This document shows, piece after piece, positions 2,023 to 12,611 of a DNA stretch of 13,419 bases (within the stretch, counting starts at the first letter, position 1; each line of letters starts with the position of its first letter). Position numbers and translations under genes: made by a program. Under the pieces are notes generated by a model, which worked only from the letters and a program-made list of their open reading frames with translations, was not told the origin of the DNA and ran no database searches. This DNA is from Butyrivibrio sp. (GTDB taxonomy: Bacteria; Bacillota_A; Clostridia; Lachnospirales; Lachnospiraceae). The stretch spans positions 1 to 13,419 of the forward strand of contig NZ_JAILQF010000183.1 of assembly GCF_024699075.1 (NCBI RefSeq), read 5' to 3'.

Positions 2023-3024
2023 TCACCGGGGATCATTTATGGGGAGGCGCGCAAATACTGTGAAGCCATCGTTTGTATAGAAGTAGGCATCACCGCCAAG
2101 ACTTCTTGCTCTGTTCCTGATATTCTCAAGGCCTATACCGTCAAGAGTGCCGGATGAGATTAATTCTCTCTGAGCATCAGACAGATGTCCATTATCAGTG
2201 ACAGAAAGGCTACAAAAGCTATAGTTCCTCTGAAGTATGATGGAGACGGTGTCTGCACTTGAATGCTTTAATATGTTAGTAACTGCTTCTTTTAGTATAC
2301 CGATCAGAGACAGCTTTATCTTTGTAGGAACAGACTCGTCAAGATCAAGATCTGCAAGGACTTTATAGTCTTTAAGTTCTCCTATTATATCATCAAAGTT
2401 CTTCTTAAGGTCTATAGAATCGTCGTGAAGATCATGAACTGAGGCTCTCATCTTCTCCATAGACTCATCCAGGGTTCCTGCCAGCATCTCAAGCTGCGAA
2501 CTTATAGAATCATCCTTGTTGACAGTCTTGATAGCCCCAAGTAGAAGGATTGCTCTTGACAGAAGGTGGCCTACATTGTCATGGATCTCTCTTGCTATCC
2601 TGTTGCGCTCAGCAAGTGTAGCAAGGTGTACCTGTTGATCCTGCTCTGACATAAGGCGTCTATTCTTGTCTTCAAGCATATCTTCCAGTTCCTTGCTGTC
2701 ATCCCTTGTTCTAAAAAGAAGTGTCTTGTATTTCATCATGATCTCATACAAGATGATAGAGACAGCTGTAAAGGCTCCAAGTATCACGATTGCCCATAGC
2801 TTTAACGTGTCATAAGGATCTCCCCAAACATACGCACCTGCTATCACAAAAGGGATTAAGGTAACAAAACTGTAAACTCTTTTATCATTAAAAAGAAGAC
2901 TTACTTCAAGTATCAAAAAAATGCAAACAGACACTACAACCGAAGAGGTTGTAATGCCATTTGCATTTGCTATAGTAATAAGTCCTGCCGCCGCCAGAAG
3001 GCGGATAATCACATCATAGAGCAT
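2023..3024 (-). CDS. Membrane sensor histidine kinase, HisKA_3 type (333 aa)
   Basis: This is an intramembrane-sensing kinase, the probable partner of the downstream response regulator. About four membrane segments (near 4-20, 27-45, 50-67 and 75-94) are joined by very short loops, so there is no room for an extracellular ligand domain. The kinase therefore probably senses the membrane or the transporter itself. A coiled linker (about 108-138) leads to the dimerisation/phosphotransfer helix RNRIAREIHDNVGHLL, with His148. The ATPase domain shows the N box at Asn250 (KEAVTNILKHS), the G1 box VTDNG (275-279) and the G2 box GIGLENIRNRARSLGG (296-311). The start codon has AGGA 5 nt upstream and overlaps the preceding permease gene by 11 nt, so translation is coupled. 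The closest known types are LiaS, DesK and LnrJ. Confidence 0.92.
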   Translation of the reverse strand: MLYDVIIRLLAAAGLITIANANGITTSSVVVSVCIFLILEVSLLFNDKRVYSFVTLIPFVIAGAYVWGDPYDTLKLWAIVILGAFTAVSIILYEIMMKYKTLLFRTRDDSKELEDMLEDKNRRLMSEQDQQVHLATLAERNRIAREIHDNVGHLLSRAILLLGAIKTVNKDDSISSQLEMLAGTLDESMEKMRASVHDLHDDSIDLKKNFDDIIGELKDYKVLADLDLDESVPTKIKLSLIGILKEAVTNILKHSSADTVSIILQRNYSFCSLSVTDNGHLSDAQRELISSGTLDGIGLENIRNRARSLGGDAYFYTNDGFTVFARLPINDPR

Positions 3025-4177
3025 ATTGTTCCTTTTTCCTTGTAATGATCATGCCTGCTGCTAAGAAAGCCATGCCAAAGAGGACTTCTATAAGTAGATA
3101 TGTTCCAAAACGTCGTCCCATAATGCTGTCAACCGGCGTGTCATTGATAAAATCCAAAGCTCTTGTATACCAGTAAAGAGGCATGAAGTGAGCTGCTTTG
3201 ACAATACCGTCAGACAGAAGCTCTTTGTCAATAAACACTCCGCATAGAAAACTCATGGACAATACCAGCATGTTGGATATCATATTGATAAGATTCTCGC
3301 TGGCTGATATCGAGCAGATAAAATATGCCATTCCAAGTCCCACCAGCATCAGAGCGTAGGTATCAAGTGCATAGTATAAAAGCTTCGCATTAGCATATTC
3401 AAGGCCCATAAGCTGGATGACCAGAATTACAAAAGAAGTGATCGCAAAACCCACGAAGGTTACGCCTCCGATAGTTGCTGCATTTCTGGTCATAAAGTGC
3501 ATTCCACTAACTGAGATACGCTTTTTGACATCTTTGTTCTTCATAAAAGTCAGAGTACTTGCACAGCAGATGCACAGGAGCATCATAAGTGTGTATCCGT
3601 TAAATGTGAACATGGATGTATAAAAAGAACGATGGTTATCATCAGATGTATCAAGTACAGATGCCTTAGTGCCACTGAGCTCTAACATCTGATCATACGT
3701 AAGTCTTATAGCCTCATCCTCGCTATAACCACTATTTAAATATATCACAACGTCCTGCAGATAGTCATCAAGCTTTTGGGTTAATAGGAACTGTGATGCG
3801 GTGGTGCCAGGAGCTATATATGTAAGAGCGCCTTCCGTATTACCTGATAAAATGTTGTCTTCAAAACCCTCCGGAATTATAAGAGCATATTCATAGATAA
3901 GGAATCTTACATTATCATTCATAGTCTGAGAATCATCGGTCTTTGGATCTACAACTTCCTGAGTGCTTTCAAGATAGCTTACAAGAGCTCTGCTTAGTTT
4001 AGAGTTATCCTTGTCTGTTACAGCCACTTTGACAGTTACTTCTTCAAAGACATCTTCTTGTGTAGTAACCTTAGCTCTTGCCTGCATATTTCCAAATACT
4101 GCAAATATGGAAAAATAGACTATTATGGTCATTATATTGGATTTAAGAGATTTAAGTATCGCATTAAAGACTGACAT
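3014..4177 (-). CDS. ABC-2 type exporter permease, second subunit (387 aa)
   Basis: This is one of two membrane subunits of the ABC exporter. One membrane segment near 14-30 is followed by a large extracytoplasmic domain (about 31-188), then five segments near 190-212, 234-257, 266-289, 298-316 and 358-378, ending in a basic cytoplasmic tail (TRKKEQYAL). This 1+5 layout with a big first external loop is the ABC2_membrane_3 plan used by drug and peptide exporters. PLYWYTRALDFIND (333-346) matches the family's conserved motif before the last helix. The Shine-Dalgarno AGGAGG sits 7 nt before the ATG, and the gene overlaps the previous permease by 14 nt and the kinase by 11 nt. It is similar in plan to the other permease but clearly diverged, so the pair probably forms a heterodimer. 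Its substrate is unknown. Confidence 0.87.
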   Translation of the reverse strand: MSVFNAILKSLKSNIMTIIVYFSIFAVFGNMQARAKVTTQEDVFEEVTVKVAVTDKDNSKLSRALVSYLESTQEVVDPKTDDSQTMNDNVRFLIYEYALIIPEGFEDNILSGNTEGALTYIAPGTTASQFLLTQKLDDYLQDVVIYLNSGYSEDEAIRLTYDQMLELSGTKASVLDTSDDNHRSFYTSMFTFNGYTLMMLLCICCASTLTFMKNKDVKKRISVSGMHFMTRNAATIGGVTFVGFAITSFVILVIQLMGLEYANAKLLYYALDTYALMLVGLGMAYFICSISASENLINMISNMLVLSMSFLCGVFIDKELLSDGIVKAAHFMPLYWYTRALDFINDTPVDSIMGRRFGTYLLIEVLFGMAFLAAGMIITRKKEQYAL

Positions 4178-6523: not shown

Positions 6524-7852
6524 CTAAACTATTTCTCTCCAAAGAAAGACTCTAAACAGTAAAAAGGCAACAACTGTAGTGATTATATCAGCAGTAACCT
6601 GCGCTGCAATAATGCCGTTAAGTCCTGCAGTCATAGATAGAATTAAAAGTGCAGGCCAAAATGCGATCCCCTGTCTGCAGGATGATAAAATAAACGCACC
6701 TGCCGCCTTACCTGTTGCCTGAAATGTACAGATAACAATAAGACATATTCCCATGAGCGGCATTCCTAGAAGCTGGAATATAAGCATTCTCGCACCCATA
6801 TCTATCATATCAGGGTCAGTCAGAAATCTTCCAAGTATGACTTTTGAAAAAAGAGACAGAAGAAAAAGTGCTGTAAGTCCTGTTCCACCTGTAAGAGCCA
6901 TTCCAAATCCCATGATCTTCTTAAGCCTGTCCTTAAGTTTTGCTCCATAACAATAGCCAATAAGAGGCTGACCGCCAAAAGATAGACCAACAATTACAAG
7001 TACAGCTATATTAACGATCTTAAGGACGATACCCATAATGGCGATATTGTCATCACCGTAAGGCTGCAGGTATCTATTGGTGAGGGTGATACCCACTGTC
7101 TGCATCAGGTTTGTGATACTGGAAGGAAGTCCTATAGCCAAAACTCCGGAGAATGTCTTAACATCAAAACTTAGATTTGCCGGATCTATAGACAACACAT
7201 CACTCTTTTTGACAATTATTATGACAAAAAAGACAGATGTAACAACATAACCTATGGCAGTTGCCATGGCAGCTCCTGCCGCGCCAAGCCCCAGTTTAAA
7301 GATAAATATAGGATCAAGGATTATATTAACAACAGTTCCAACAACAGATCCTACCATCGATTCCATAGCCTTACCTTCTGCTCTTAAAAGATTAGACGGA
7401 ACCAGTGAAAAGATGACAAAAGTTGAAGCAAGAATAAGCCATGTATAGTACTGCTTAGCATAATCATAAGTATTATCAGTAGCTCCAAGGAGCATAACTA
7501 CCTGCTTTTTAAATACCAGCATAAGTATAGTAAAAATAATACCTGTGATAATAGAAGTATATATACAAAATGTACTCTTACTCCTTGCTCCATCTCTGTC
7601 ATGTGATCCAAGGGCTCTTGAGATCACAGAGCTTCCGCCTATTCCAAATATATCTCCTATTGCCAGAAGCAGTGTAAATAAAGGTGCGCACAAAGATACT
7701 CCTGCAATAAGATCCGTATTACCTGTCAGCGCGATAAAATAAGTATCTACAAGATTATAAATAAGAGTAACTACCATACCCATAACAACAGGCAGCGCCA
7801 TCTTCATATAAGCCTTGGGAATAGGTGTTTTTTCAAATAATTCGTTTTGCAT
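6524..7852 (-). CDS. MATE-family multidrug/cation efflux pump, MepA-like (442 aa)
   Basis: This is an inner-membrane antiporter of the MATE family that exports cationic compounds at the expense of an Na+ or H+ gradient. About twelve hydrophobic segments span the whole length in two related halves. Typical family patterns are visible: an N-terminal PIPKAYMKMALPVVMG stretch, LVDTYFIA in the first helix, the GIGGSSVISRALG segment near 71-83, and IGLPSSITNLMQ opening the second half. A normal MATE length and both ends are present. The start has AAAGGA 9 nt upstream. The gene is single, ends in its own terminator, and has a leader of about 155 nt holding a structured RNA and a terminator. If that leader is a guanidine-IV riboswitch, guanidinium is the likely physiological signal and perhaps a substrate. 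That is inference from the family, since the protein sequence alone would only say MATE. Confidence 0.92.
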   Translation of the reverse strand: MQNELFEKTPIPKAYMKMALPVVMGMVVTLIYNLVDTYFIALTGNTDLIAGVSLCAPLFTLLLAIGDIFGIGGSSVISRALGSHDRDGARSKSTFCIYTSIITGIIFTILMLVFKKQVVMLLGATDNTYDYAKQYYTWLILASTFVIFSLVPSNLLRAEGKAMESMVGSVVGTVVNIILDPIFIFKLGLGAAGAAMATAIGYVVTSVFFVIIIVKKSDVLSIDPANLSFDVKTFSGVLAIGLPSSITNLMQTVGITLTNRYLQPYGDDNIAIMGIVLKIVNIAVLVIVGLSFGGQPLIGYCYGAKLKDRLKKIMGFGMALTGGTGLTALFLLSLFSKVILGRFLTDPDMIDMGARMLIFQLLGMPLMGICLIVICTFQATGKAAGAFILSSCRQGIAFWPALLILSMTAGLNGIIAAQVTADIITTVVAFLLFRVFLWREIV

Positions 7853-7928
7853 TGTTTTATATCCTTTCCAAATATATATTATTCAACCGTCCGAGTTGGA
7901 AGTATAAATGTATTAGCTTATTTGATGC

Positions 7929-7991
7929 AAAAAAAAATCCATGACCCGAGATGGATTATGGATTTCCTAACCGTGGCCAGCAATGCCAGCC
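7929..7991 (-). ncRNA. Candidate guanidine-IV (mepA motif) riboswitch with transcription terminator
   Basis: Read on the minus strand, the MATE leader first forms a 7-bp stem GGCUGGC/GCUGGCC (7985-7991 with 7975-7981, two G-U wobbles), then ACGG (7971-7974). A terminator follows: AAUCCAU (7951-7957) pairs with AUGGAUU (7936-7942), followed by seven more U (7929-7935). A rival stem, GGUUA-GG with CC-A-UAA-U-CC (7953-7972), would capture the terminator's 5' arm. No minus-strand gene lies upstream, so this terminator can only act within the MATE leader. Known: the mepA motif sits before MATE genes in clostridia and binds guanidinium, turning the gene on by preventing termination. Inferred: class membership, from context, ACGG and architecture rather than from a model search. 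Confidence 0.62.
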
Positions 7992-8015
7992 CTACTACAA
8001 TATTAATTTCACTTA

Positions 8016-8045
8016 ATCCTAGCACTTTTTAGCTATATGAGTCAA
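8016..8045 (-). promoter_or_regulatory. Promoter of the MATE leader and gene
   Basis: The minus strand carries a -35 TTGACT (8040-8045), an 18-nt spacer and a -10 TAGGAT (8016-8021) preceded by TGC, an extended -10. The start near 8009 would place the first riboswitch stem about 18 nt into the transcript, with the terminator 52-80 nt in. Confidence 0.55.
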
Positions 8046-8082
8046 TAACCGAAATGTTTTGTTTAACCCTATCCACCTTTTG

Positions 8083-8110
8083 TTGATGGTTCATAGCACG
8101 TGAATATTAT
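8083..8110 (+). promoter_or_regulatory. Candidate promoter of the ene-reductase gene
   Basis: The sequence TTGATG (8083-8088), a 16-nt spacer and TATTAT (8105-8110) would start transcription near 8117 and give a leader of about 130 nt. The match is moderate, and another start closer to the gene, near the AT-rich stretch 8200-8220, is possible. Confidence 0.4.
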
Positions 8111-8128
8111 AAAATTAATGCATATGAT

Positions 8129-8159
8129 AAAAGTTTAACAAAGGCAAGTTAAGCTTTTT
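8129..8159 (+). promoter_or_regulatory. Leader hairpin upstream of the ene-reductase
   Basis: Arms 8129-8139 and 8148-8158 pair over 11 bp (one G-U) around the loop AAAGGCAA, and the 3' arm ends in five T. If transcription starts near 8117, this hairpin lies within the leader and could act as a weak attenuator or as a 5' stabilising stem. The low GC of the stem argues against strong termination. Confidence 0.4.
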
Positions 8160-8173
8160 CACCCGGCTTATGA

Positions 8174-8194
8174 AGCATGCTACATACGCATGTT
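8174..8194. repeat. Inverted repeat upstream of the ene-reductase
   Basis: AGCATGC and GCATGTT (8174-8180, 8188-8194) pair over 7 bp with one wobble around a 7-nt spacer. It lies about 50 bp upstream of the start codon and could be an operator or part of leader RNA folding. Confidence 0.3.
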
Positions 8195-8245
8195 TCGATA
8201 TTTTTCCATTATATACAAATAATAAACAGGTAGGAGGACAATTAA

Positions 8246-10237
8246 ATGAAGTACCAGGGACTTTTTGAGCCTATCAAGATCGGTAAGCTCGAAATCAAGA
8301 ACCGCTACGCTATGGCGCCCATGGGACCACTTGGTCTTGGCGACTGCGAAGGCGGCTGGAATGACAGAGGTATTGATTACTACACAAGACGTGCCAAGGG
8401 CGGCATCGGTCTTATCATCACAGGTGTAACATTCTCAGACACTGAAGTTGAGAAGCCTTCTTTTCCTAATACACCTAACTCAACTTACAATCCGGTTCAG
8501 TTCGTAAGAACAAGCCGTGAGATGACAGAGCGTGTACACGCTTACGGTTCTAAGATATTCCTGCAGATGAGCGGCGGATTCGGACGCGTTACTATCCCTA
8601 CAAACCTTGGAGAGTTCCCTCCTGTATCTGCTTCTGCTATCCCGCACAGATGGCTTGACAAGACTTGCCGTCCACTTACTGTAGAAGAGATCCACGGAAT
8701 CGTAGAGAGCTTTGGTAAGGGTGCTTACAATGCTAAGCGTGCAGGCTTCGACGGCGTTGAGATCCACGCTGTACACGAAGGATACCTTATCGACCAGTTT
8801 GCTATCTCCTTCTTCAATCACAGAGAAGATGAATACGGCGGATCACTTGAGAACAGACTCAGATTTGCTAAAGAGATCCGTGAAGAGATTGCTAAGACTT
8901 GTGGCTGGGACTTCCCTGTTGCAATGAGATTCTCACTTAAGAGCATGGTCAAGGACTTCCGTGAAGGTGCTCTTCCGGGCGAAGAATTCGAAGAAAAAGG
9001 CCGTGATATCGAAGAAGGTATCGAGGCAGCAAAGCTCCTTGAGAAGTTCGGCTATGACGCTCTTGACGTAGACGCAGGAACATACGATGCATGGTGGTGG
9101 AATCACCCTCCGATGTACATGGAGAAGGCTCCTTACAAGGAATTTGCACGTATCACTAAGGAGAATGTAAATATCCCTGTTATCATGGCAGGTCGTGTAG
9201 ATAACCCTGATACAGCTATTGACTGTCTTGACAAGAATATCTGCGACATGATCTCCCTTGGTCGTCCTACACTTGCTGATCCTGATATCGTTAACAAGAT
9301 CCGTAGAGGTAACCTCTCACAGATCCGTCCATGTATCAGCTGTCAGGAAGGCTGCATGGGTCGTATCCAGACTTACTCTCTCATCAACTGTGCTGTTAAC
9401 CCTCAGGCAGGCAAAGAGAGACTTAACAAGTACAACCCTGTTGTTAAGAAGAAAAAAGTCCTCGTAGTAGGCGGCGGTGTTGCAGGTTGTGAAGCTGCAC
9501 GCGTACTTGCAGAAAGAGGTCATGAGCCTGTCCTTTATGAAGCATCAGACAGACTTGGCGGTAACCTCATCCCTGGTGGTGCTCCGGCATTCAAGGAAGA
9601 CGATATCGCACTTGCTAAGTGGTACGAAGATGAAATGGTACGCCTTAATGTAGAAGTTCACATGAATACAAAGGCTACTGAGAAGGAGATCCTTGATAGT
9701 CAGTATGATGCTGTTATCCTTGCTACAGGTTCTCGTCCTAAGATGTTCTCACTTGGCGATGATGACAAGGTTTACTCTGCAGAGCAGGTACTTCTTGGCA
9801 AGAAAGATGCCGGAGACAAGGTAGTTGTAGTCGGCGGCGGTCTTGTAGGATGCGAACTTGCACTTGACCTTGCTCAGAAGGGCAAAAAGGTAACTATAGT
9901 AGAAGCTCTTGATAAGCTCATGGCAGTTAACGGACCTCTCTGCTCAGCTAATAAGGAAATGCTTGAAAAGCTCATTCCATTCAACGGTATCGACGTTGTT
10001 ACAGGTGCTAAAGTTACAGAATACAAGGACGGCGTATTAAAGGCATCTGTAGGCGAAGGAACTAAAGAGCTTGAAGCTGACAGCGTAGTACTTTGCGTAG
10101 GTTATGCAAGCGAGAATACACTCTACAACCAGTACAAGAATGATGTAGACGAGATCTACCTCCTTGGCGATGCTAAGCAGGTATCCAACATCATGTATGG
10201 TATCTGGGATGCATTCGAAGTAGCTAACCACATCTAA
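8246..10237 (+). CDS. Old-yellow-enzyme family FMN/Fe-S/FAD ene-reductase, 2-enoate reductase-like (663 aa)
   Basis: This is a cytoplasmic flavoenzyme that uses NAD(P)H to reduce an activated C=C bond, built like 2-enoate reductase, FadH (2,4-dienoyl-CoA reductase) and the BaiH proteins. Residues 1-350 form the FMN-binding TIM barrel, with the conserved segment VEIHAVHEGYLIDQF (171-185) holding His174, His177 and Tyr180 of the active-site region. Cys363, Cys366, Cys370 and Cys382 are spaced for a [4Fe-4S] cluster. Two nucleotide-binding folds follow: VLVVGGGVAGCEAA (405-418) for FAD and VVVVGGGLVGCELA (526-539) for NAD(P)H. The length is near that of clostridial 2-enoate reductase. TAGGAGG lies 8 nt before the ATG. 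Codon choice is strongly biased, suggesting high expression and creating long false antisense ORFs. The substrate is not readable from sequence; an unsaturated acid or its CoA ester is likely. It stands alone, with its own terminator. Confidence 0.92.
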   Translation: MKYQGLFEPIKIGKLEIKNRYAMAPMGPLGLGDCEGGWNDRGIDYYTRRAKGGIGLIITGVTFSDTEVEKPSFPNTPNSTYNPVQFVRTSREMTERVHAYGSKIFLQMSGGFGRVTIPTNLGEFPPVSASAIPHRWLDKTCRPLTVEEIHGIVESFGKGAYNAKRAGFDGVEIHAVHEGYLIDQFAISFFNHREDEYGGSLENRLRFAKEIREEIAKTCGWDFPVAMRFSLKSMVKDFREGALPGEEFEEKGRDIEEGIEAAKLLEKFGYDALDVDAGTYDAWWWNHPPMYMEKAPYKEFARITKENVNIPVIMAGRVDNPDTAIDCLDKNICDMISLGRPTLADPDIVNKIRRGNLSQIRPCISCQEGCMGRIQTYSLINCAVNPQAGKERLNKYNPVVKKKKVLVVGGGVAGCEAARVLAERGHEPVLYEASDRLGGNLIPGGAPAFKEDDIALAKWYEDEMVRLNVEVHMNTKATEKEILDSQYDAVILATGSRPKMFSLGDDDKVYSAEQVLLGKKDAGDKVVVVGGGLVGCELALDLAQKGKKVTIVEALDKLMAVNGPLCSANKEMLEKLIPFNGIDVVTGAKVTEYKDGVLKASVGEGTKELEADSVVLCVGYASENTLYNQYKNDVDEIYLLGDAKQVSNIMYGIWDAFEVANHI

Positions 10238-11130: not shown

Positions 11131-12027
11131 TTATTTCCACCTTTTAGCTAAATGATCCCACTCTGATGAATAATCTATTCCTCTAGTTATGCTATCAACA
11201 ATCGGAAGCAACATCGCCTTAAGCAATATTACTACATCTTCCAACTCTGTATTTACCACAGCTTTCTTCTTTTTCAGAAAGGCCTTCCACCTGCTTTGAT
11301 GTATACCACTTGCTAAGAAATCATCAGTAAATGCAAATATATCATCAAAACCTGTTCCACGGTGCTCAAATGTTTCCTTAACTGCTTCTTTAAGTTCTGC
11401 CCCATCAAAATCATACCTGTCAGCTAGTATGTATATATCATAAAAGTCTTTATATCTGCTATTAGCATCTCCTAAAGAAACAATTGCCTCAAACTTCTCT
11501 GAAATAACCGAAGAAATTGAATAAGCGTAAATCTCAGGTATCTCCATATCGAGCAGTACTGGAAACTCCATCTTTATTCTCTCAGGATAAATAACATCAC
11601 CAAACCCAATATCAATTGAAACCGGAACCTTAGTCCTGTCCAAATATGCCATAATAGAAACATTCACACCATGATATTCCTTAAATTCAGTGATCTCTTT
11701 GACATCCAAGGTATCAAGATCAAACGTAAGCGCATCATCGCATGAAATGGAAAATATATTTTCAAATACCTTTTTCATATCTTCCACATTATTTGGTATA
11801 TTCTTTGCAAGAAGGTCAATATCCCTTGTTGCTCTTGCAAACTCACCATCAAATAACGCATAAAGAAAAATACCACCTTTCAATGTAAAGCGCTCTATAT
11901 ACTCTGACACCGATAGCCTGTATACGGTTCGTTCCAATCCATACGTTACCAGCGCTTCCTGAAAAGTTTTACCACTTGCAATTGCCTTGTTCTTTAGCCT
12001 ATCTTTTACTGATATTGCGCTTATCAT
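11131..12027 (-). CDS. abiEii: AbiEii-family nucleotidyltransferase toxin (298 aa)
   Basis: This is the toxin half of a type IV AbiE toxin-antitoxin pair, a family of abortive-infection and plasmid-maintenance systems in which the toxin is a DNA-polymerase-beta-like nucleotidyltransferase that transfers nucleotides to RNA targets. Motif I is present as KGGIFLYALFD (50-60) followed by RATRDIDLL (65-73), with the metal-binding pair Asp69/Asp71. VSIDIGFGD (136-144) holds the third acidic position. Motif III is SEKFEAIVSL (176-185, Lys178), and RYKDFYDIYIL (191-201) holds Asp194 and Asp197. The length is normal and every key residue is there, so it should be active. It overlaps the antitoxin gene by 4 nt (ATGA), so the two are made together. 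No terminator was seen after its stop codon. Confidence 0.93.
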   Translation of the reverse strand: MISAISVKDRLKNKAIASGKTFQEALVTYGLERTVYRLSVSEYIERFTLKGGIFLYALFDGEFARATRDIDLLAKNIPNNVEDMKKVFENIFSISCDDALTFDLDTLDVKEITEFKEYHGVNVSIMAYLDRTKVPVSIDIGFGDVIYPERIKMEFPVLLDMEIPEIYAYSISSVISEKFEAIVSLGDANSRYKDFYDIYILADRYDFDGAELKEAVKETFEHRGTGFDDIFAFTDDFLASGIHQSRWKAFLKKKKAVVNTELEDVVILLKAMLLPIVDSITRGIDYSSEWDHLAKRWK

Positions 12028-12611
12028 ACGAGAACCTCCAGATATTGTCTCATTGTCTTATCGCATTTCATTAACTCTGCATATTTGAGAAGTCTGTTAA
12101 GATTTCGATCCTTCCTTTGAAGATATGACACAAGGATTTCCTTTGTTTCTTCAATCCCAACTTTTTCTCTGTAAAATACGATATCAACAACGGTTTTCTC
12201 TATATCATATATCTGGAATTCATTCTTACCTTCCTTTACCGTTATTGCTCCTAGTTCATGCCTGCTATCTGTATAATAATGAATGTTAATCTGTGGCCAA
12301 TCCGGAATCGTAGAAACCTTTGATTTTCTCGGAATAGCCACATCAACAGCATCGGGGATAAAAGTTGTGAGATGATAATAAACTGCAGCACTAAGCAGAC
12401 ATATTACTCCCTTCGGAGCATATGCCTCTGCATAGTAGAAATCGGATTCTTCTCCACAATACTCTGCATTCTCATAATATCTTTTATTTAGTTTTATTAG
12501 CTTCCCTTCATCAACTAGCTTGCTGATCTTATACAGCGAAAAACCATAGTCTTTAAGCTCCTGCACGGAAAAAAGCTTTTTATCTTCAGGAAGTATTGAT
12601 GATTCTGACAT
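12024..12611 (-). CDS. abiEi: AbiEi-family antitoxin, DNA-binding (195 aa)
   Basis: This is the antitoxin and autorepressor of the AbiE pair. Residues about 12-46 form the N-terminal winged helix-turn-helix (LFSVQELKDYGFSLYKISKL, then EGKLIKLNKRYY). The middle carries the family signature GVICLLSAAVYYHLTT (68-83) and YDIEKTVVDIVFYR (135-148). The C-terminal helical part (about 150-195) belongs to the antitoxin domain. In known type IV systems the antitoxin opposes toxin activity without a stable complex, and its HTH domain binds inverted repeats at its own promoter. The start has GGGAG 5 nt upstream. A near-consensus promoter and a perfect inverted repeat lie directly upstream, fitting negative autoregulation. 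Confidence 0.92.
   Translation of the reverse strand: MSESSILPEDKKLFSVQELKDYGFSLYKISKLVDEGKLIKLNKRYYENAEYCGEESDFYYAEAYAPKGVICLLSAAVYYHLTTFIPDAVDVAIPRKSKVSTIPDWPQINIHYYTDSRHELGAITVKEGKNEFQIYDIEKTVVDIVFYREKVGIEETKEILVSYLQRKDRNLNRLLKYAELMKCDKTMRQYLEVLV

Follow-up and report, generated by a model that had tools for sequence, protein, structure and literature searches.

A conserved leader RNA ahead of one clade of MATE transporter genes in Butyrivibrio and other Bacillota: a putative transcription-attenuating riboswitch

Efflux pumps of the MATE family occur widely, and few of their natural substrates are known. Where a riboswitch is tied to a single MATE clade, the ligand recognised by the RNA becomes a candidate for the cargo of the pump. 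A contig of Butyrivibrio sp. (NZ_JAILQF010000183.1), of which a stretch of 13,419 nucleotides was analysed as a whole (hereafter, the window), carries on its minus strand a MATE gene preceded by a terminator-like hairpin, and raises the question of whether this leader is a regulatory RNA and to which class it might belong. A preliminary description of the sequence had read the leader as a guanidine-IV (mepA) riboswitch with a terminator and an antiterminator or, failing that, as an undescribed attenuator. The analysis presented here favours the second reading: the riboswitch-type organisation, in which a promoter of its own, a conserved core resembling an aptamer and a terminator precede the MATE gene, is retained, while the guanidine-IV label is given up.

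The presumed regulated gene (6524-7852, minus strand) encodes a MATE family efflux transporter of 442 amino acids, as judged by matches to PF01554 (7.2e-45) and TIGR00797 (194.9 bits, cut-off 147.4). Ahead of it, on the same strand, lies a hairpin at 7929-7968 followed by a run of U ending at 7929, 77 nucleotides from the ATG at 7852, and the closest upstream open reading frame of at least 80 amino acids (8246-10237) is on the plus strand; the minus-strand terminator and the lack of a minus-strand gene before it had both been pointed out earlier. The GC-rich stem (7975-7991) and the ACGG (7971-7974) were likewise located as described, and the proposed promoter of the leader was recovered by a consensus scan as a sigma-70-like element (8016-8045, minus strand, 9/12) composed of TTGACT at 8040-8045, an 18-nucleotide spacer and an extended -10 element, TG.TAGGAT, at 8016-8021. 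The leader terminator was missing from the consensus terminator scan of the window, probably because of a mismatch in its stem.

Relatives of the leader were collected by several routes. In 61 related genomes, blastn gave a strong leader match in five, and reading upstream of the MATE orthologues gave further leaders; among the 16 closest MATE orthologues in these genomes (45-97% identity), eight have the leader and eight do not. An exact pattern applied to a named genome collection matched 25 stretches, 14 of which are members, five of them at loci already found (L062, L063, L070, L074 and L078), and 11 of which were dropped as having no AUAAUCC plus terminator within the next 110 nucleotides; viral contigs gave no matches to the pattern. 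Of two covariance models, R1 was built from 16 members and R2 from 27. With R1, 397 genomes of the host family yielded seven clear members plus a truncated one, 398 genomes of the phylum yielded three clear members, one of which (in genome G881) belongs to another class, and 151 genomes of the order to which G881 belongs yielded nine. R2, applied to 291 genomes of the class, returned three genomes of the genus that were already known, and its three other matches are attributable to chance. Among 101 genomes from the G881 order, six have a MATE of the window kind at E <= 1e-60 and the leader accompanies it in all six; in genome G983 the gene and the leader are on two contigs, each with part of the gene.

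These searches yielded 32 distinct loci in Butyrivibrio, other Lachnospiraceae and Selenomonadaceae (the named host of the last being Anaerovibrio), comprising the 27 rows of alignment A2, L039 and L043 with a long insert in the first hairpin (P1), L201, L202 and the truncated L110; weak model matches, among them L207 and L208, are left out of this count. The breadth of the family is modest and covers two families of Bacillota. A MATE gene of one clade lies directly downstream of 27 of the 32 leaders (some being cut by the contig end), remnants follow three others, namely a MATE fragment at L109 and only an apparent MATE start at L199 and L202, and no MATE gene or clear remnant is visible downstream of L105 and L204. 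The leaders at L199, L202 and L204, all from the order of G881, look intact though the MATE gene is absent or reduced to an apparent start. At L110 (1501-1573, minus strand), a MATE leader is found without the UAGGG-P1 part and with a promoter-like pair right before ACGG; it is possibly a constitutive or dying switch.

Several groups of candidates were set aside. Terminators without the conserved core (L111-L118, L136-L140, L205, L206 and L212-L214) were dropped, as was L135, which has pieces of the core but no ACGG. Three near-identical copies near contig ends in genome G822 (L134, L152 and L156; R1 E-values 1.2e-8 to 1.7e-7) show GUAGG ... GCCAGGUAAGGAAGUCC and a terminator, without UAGGG and without ACGG, and were dropped as repeats, the best of them (1.2e-8) being a stronger R1 match than the accepted L109; they might be a repeated element or distant kin. 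Near-identical GTAGGG...GCCACGGTT.GGATATCC copies at L061 and L073, in Bacillota bacterium S22M_St_14, form a palindromic hairpin with no terminator seen, and look like a repeated element.

Comparison of the members shows a common plan, in which UAGGG, the variable hairpin P1 with compensatory changes and YACGGU..GGAnAUCCAUAAUCC are followed by a loop, a 3' arm and a U-run, the end of the conserved stretch serving as the 5' arm of a predicted terminator ahead of the MATE gene. In A2 the order reads UAGGG, P1, YACGGU, one or two unconstrained positions, GGA, a further such position, AUC(C)A(U/C)AAUCC, the variable terminator loop, the 3' arm and the U-run. The whole motif in the window (7924-8002, minus strand) scores 71.1 bits against R2 (E 1e-19), the window being one of the rows from which R2 was built. 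Its 5' block, AGUAG (7992-7996), reads AGUAGGG together with the first two G of P1, the corresponding stretch being GAUAGGG in L107-L109, and UAGGG is invariant in 27/27 rows. P1 (GGCUGGC-AUU-GCUGGCC, 7975-7991), recognised from folding and A2, varies in its loop and upper stem, and the distance from UAG to ACGG ranges from 13 to 26 nucleotides in the 27 rows. The linker ACGGU-nn-GGA (ACGGUUAGGA in the window, 7965-7974) is invariant in its ACGGU and GGA in all 27. The terminator 5' arm (GAAAUCCAUAAUCC, 7953-7966), which doubles as the 3' strand of the presumed aptamer, has 11 of its 14 columns invariant, as against five of 14 in the 3' arm (7934-7947), which drifts with pairing kept and whose end is overlapped by the nine-U run (7929-7937) of the intrinsic terminator. 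The preliminary description had drawn attention to a tandem ATGGATT at 7951-7957 and 7958-7964; both copies are present, but the perfect tandem occurs in the window and its closest relative, L031, and the other members keep only AUCC-AUA-AUCC.

A promoter-like pair (at least 9/12, 18-34 nucleotides before the motif) was counted in 21 of the 30 other members scored, a raw count taken with no shuffled baseline and in which the window, whose promoter rests on the consensus scan, is not included. A putative promoter thus stands just upstream of the motif in most of the members scored.

The two hairpins are supported by the alignment. In A2, 93.7% of 539 cells are paired and both-sided changes occur in 6/20 pairs, P1 accounting for such changes in four of its six counted pairs; the cells with both-sided changes number 42 against 13.3 in shuffles, with 0/500 shuffles as high, and control structures slid by one to three columns paired in at most 47%. 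The same two hairpins were returned by RNAalifold, unaided. In the window, the 69-nucleotide core folds at -24.3 kcal/mol (z = -3.9, 0/200 shuffles equal), and the signal is weaker over a 176-nucleotide stretch (z = -1.6, 10/200 equal). Altogether 28 columns are invariant in the 27 members from two bacterial families, a conservation that is inflated because the members found by pattern or model were selected for some of the conserved bases: the search pattern fixed some of them, AUAAUCC not being among these, and the models favour all. Columns 53-59 of A2, which lie outside the search pattern, are invariant in six of seven cases, and the members found through MATE orthology alone show like conservation.

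The two arms of the terminator differ in conservation. Both arms of a plain terminator are free to drift together. The summed entropy here is 1.7 bits for the 5' arm and 7.3 bits for the 3' arm (1.9 and 7.5 bits in the 22 rows under 85% identity), and the 5' arm, being conserved beyond its pairing partner, probably serves a second interaction, as it does in riboswitches that act through a terminator. The nature of that interaction was examined by folding ten members up to the 3' arm. The folds differ and no conserved Watson-Crick antiterminator helix is common to them, so the bound fold described below is a proposal only, and the earlier suggestion of one specific rival stem capturing the 5' arm finds no support in these ten folds. 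A GG/CC mini-stem within GGAnAUCC, with a probability above 0.25 in eight of the ten, fits the invariant columns as a predicted pairing and is no proof of them being paired.

Association with the downstream gene was assessed on a tree of 48 MATE proteins. All 26 leader-bearing proteins belong to a single clade with 34 members (support 100/99), and eight of the 22 rows without a leader lie inside this clade. The leader label requires seven changes on the tree against a shuffled mean of 16.2, and 0/500 shuffles were as low; a history of one origin and several losses fits this distribution, which is no proof of it. The Anaerovibrio MATE is nested in a group of Lachnospiraceae sequences, as expected from horizontal transfer.

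Taken together, these comparative data suggest that the leader represents an undescribed cis-regulatory RNA family through which one MATE clade is regulated by attenuation of transcription, and most likely an ON-type small-molecule riboswitch, a reading to which a probability of about 70% is assigned. The general traits of attenuating riboswitches are present, namely a conserved unpaired core, a covarying helix, an overlapping intrinsic terminator and a fitting gene class; the frozen 5' arm, with the invariant unpaired UAG and ACGGU..GGA arranged round a helix of free sequence, gives the leader the look of an aptamer overlapping its terminator. In the proposed mechanism, RNA polymerase would first make the core of about 50 nucleotides. 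With the ligand present, UAGGG, ACGGU..GGA and the AUCCAUAAUCC strand would fold round it and hold back the 5' arm, whereby the terminator would be blocked and the pump made; with no ligand, the stable terminator would form and transcription would stop ahead of the gene. The ligand would presumably be a toxic compound exported by the pump. A leader peptide is unlikely since, within the aligned stretch, the start-codon list being cut short in rows with GGAAAUCC, eight of the 27 rows are without a start codon and the frames disagree. No published description of such a MATE-linked RNA was found in literature searches covering Butyrivibrio, Lachnospiraceae, Selenomonas and orphan motifs, supplementary files and most subscription journals being outside their scope; likewise, no MATE or efflux motif appeared in word searches of PMC11109978, PMC8632094 and PMC6429828, or in passages of PMC7266159 and PMC10085705. 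If a riboswitch, the leader would represent a compact orphan class.

A special case of the attenuating riboswitch, the odds of which overlap with those given above, is that the leader is a reduced relative of guanidine-I (ykkC, RF00442) that senses guanidinium or another small nitrogen-rich cation. The 3' core does loosely resemble guanidine-I (UAGGG...ACGGnnGGAnA): the two appear to have in common the order UAGGG, a hairpin, ACGG-nn-GGAnA and a conserved strand that, by eye, overlaps the terminator 5' arm. The RF00442 consensus reads CUAGGGUUCCG ... CACGGagGGAuAAAAGCC, its last strand being, again by eye, the terminator 5' arm in sugE leaders. When this block pattern was searched on both strands of 0.8 Mb of fetched, partly overlapping loci, it was found in the leader family, in six of the seven guanidine-I loci and in loci that had been chosen with a like pattern, and otherwise only at L056 and at a single place represented by both L145 and L154. 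The blocks were, however, picked after both sequences had been seen, and the Rfam Guanidine-I model gave no match at E <= 10 in the window and ten other members (one truncated), the same scan having matched seven sugE-type loci with RF00442. Conversely, R2 had no match to the seven guanidine-I loci. The leader, moreover, is about half the size of guanidine-I and lacks the outer ykkC helices and UUCCG, which does not follow UAGGG in any of the 27 A2 rows. The relationship is regarded as doubtful and is retained as a lead. At similarly long odds, the leader might define a riboswitch class, new and specific to Bacillota of the rumen and gut, whose aptamer of about 50 nucleotides has kept only the ykkC 3' core and responds to a toxic nitrogen-rich compound that the MATE clade exports; it would then be a minimal aptamer of the ykkC type set into a terminator. 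If the likeness to ykkC were true, it would indicate how far that versatile scaffold can be reduced.

It is also conceivable, but improbable, that termination is averted by a protein, and not by a small molecule, bound to the conserved RNA. Antiterminators bound by proteins also overlap the 5' arms of terminators, and a regulator encoded elsewhere in the genome could play this part. Against it, no recurrent regulator, RNA-binding or other, stands beside the gene among ten neighbours at eight loci (one of these neighbours being without a Pfam match), a PUA-domain methyltransferase adjoining the gene in one locus only, and conserved unpaired nucleotides round a helix of free sequence are what an aptamer typically shows.

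The guanidine-IV identity proposed earlier was judged against the accessible portions of the published descriptions. According to these, guanidine-IV RNAs conserve nucleotides in the terminator-hairpin loop and form a pseudoknot between their two hairpins (PMC7736828, PMC9788692, PMC8632094, PMC11611296), have no conserved ACG trimer (PMC7736828) and, like the Gd4v RNAs, are found ahead of MATE genes and rely on a terminator hairpin (PMC7736828, PMC9788692). The present leader agrees with guanidine-IV (GGAM-1, mepA motif) in being a short leader before MATE or other exporter genes, with two hairpins of which the second is an intrinsic terminator, and in being a presumed ON switch. Its conserved nucleotides, however, lie on the 5' side of P1, in the stretch that links the hairpins and in the terminator 5' arm, all outside the loops, and its ACGG is invariant in 27/27 aligned members. 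As seen in A2 and from a comparison of the P1 loops, both loops vary in sequence and length, the terminator loop in columns 60-71 and the P1 loop down to three nucleotides (in the window, L035 and L198), so that a loop-loop pseudoknot cannot be conserved. With no loop conservation, no shared loop-loop pairing and an invariant ACGG, membership of the guanidine-IV class as described in those portions is excluded; guanidinium may still be the ligand. Gd4v resembles the leader in occurring in gut bacteria, in having MATE among its genes and in its orphan ligand, but has a two-hairpin pseudoknot of the guanidine-IV type, absent here, and an extra hairpin on the terminator, and its main genes are those of transaminases and GNATs, whereas the present members are associated with one MATE clade; judged by the accessible description, Gd4v was also rejected.

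Database scans carry less weight in this comparison. Rfam 15, which may hold no guanidine-IV model, gave no match at the gathering threshold in the whole window, and at E <= 10 only implausible matches far below gathering in 7700-8300 and ten relatives. Four leaders upstream of sugE (L162, L165, L175 and L178), which have GCCG upstream and carry UAGGCC at the tip of the terminator, are probably guanidine-IV RNAs, as their sequences suggest; they have no Rfam 15 match either, and absence from Rfam is therefore weak evidence. R2 gave no match at E <= 10 to these four probable guanidine-IV leaders. A plasmid search with a sugE protein returned mostly Proteobacteria and Staphylococcus. On the whole, it is very improbable that the leader is a guanidine-IV riboswitch or a Gd4v variant.

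A plain terminator or chance hairpin with no regulatory role can practically be dismissed: this very stable terminator would function unaided, but it stands before its own gene, and the 27 aligned members in two families have the 28 invariant columns, inflated as these are by the search bias.

Other features of the window were noted beside the attenuating leader. A second terminator-like hairpin lies on the plus strand at 8171-8197, 49 nucleotides before the divergent gene for an OYE-type flavoenzyme (8246-10237), and is also seen by eye in genome G001 (L031); it has no credible Rfam match and is possibly another attenuated leader. On the minus strand, an AbiEi/AbiEii pair (11131-12611; PADLOC 2.6e-97 and 2.4e-93) constitutes a phage-defence module of the toxin-antitoxin type. 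Between 1339 and 6253, also on the minus strand, a DrrA-like ABC ATPase that scores under its NCBIfam cut-off, an ABC-2 type permease, a second such open reading frame (3014-4177, a candidate), a HisKA_3 histidine kinase and a LuxR-type response regulator follow one another in a row.
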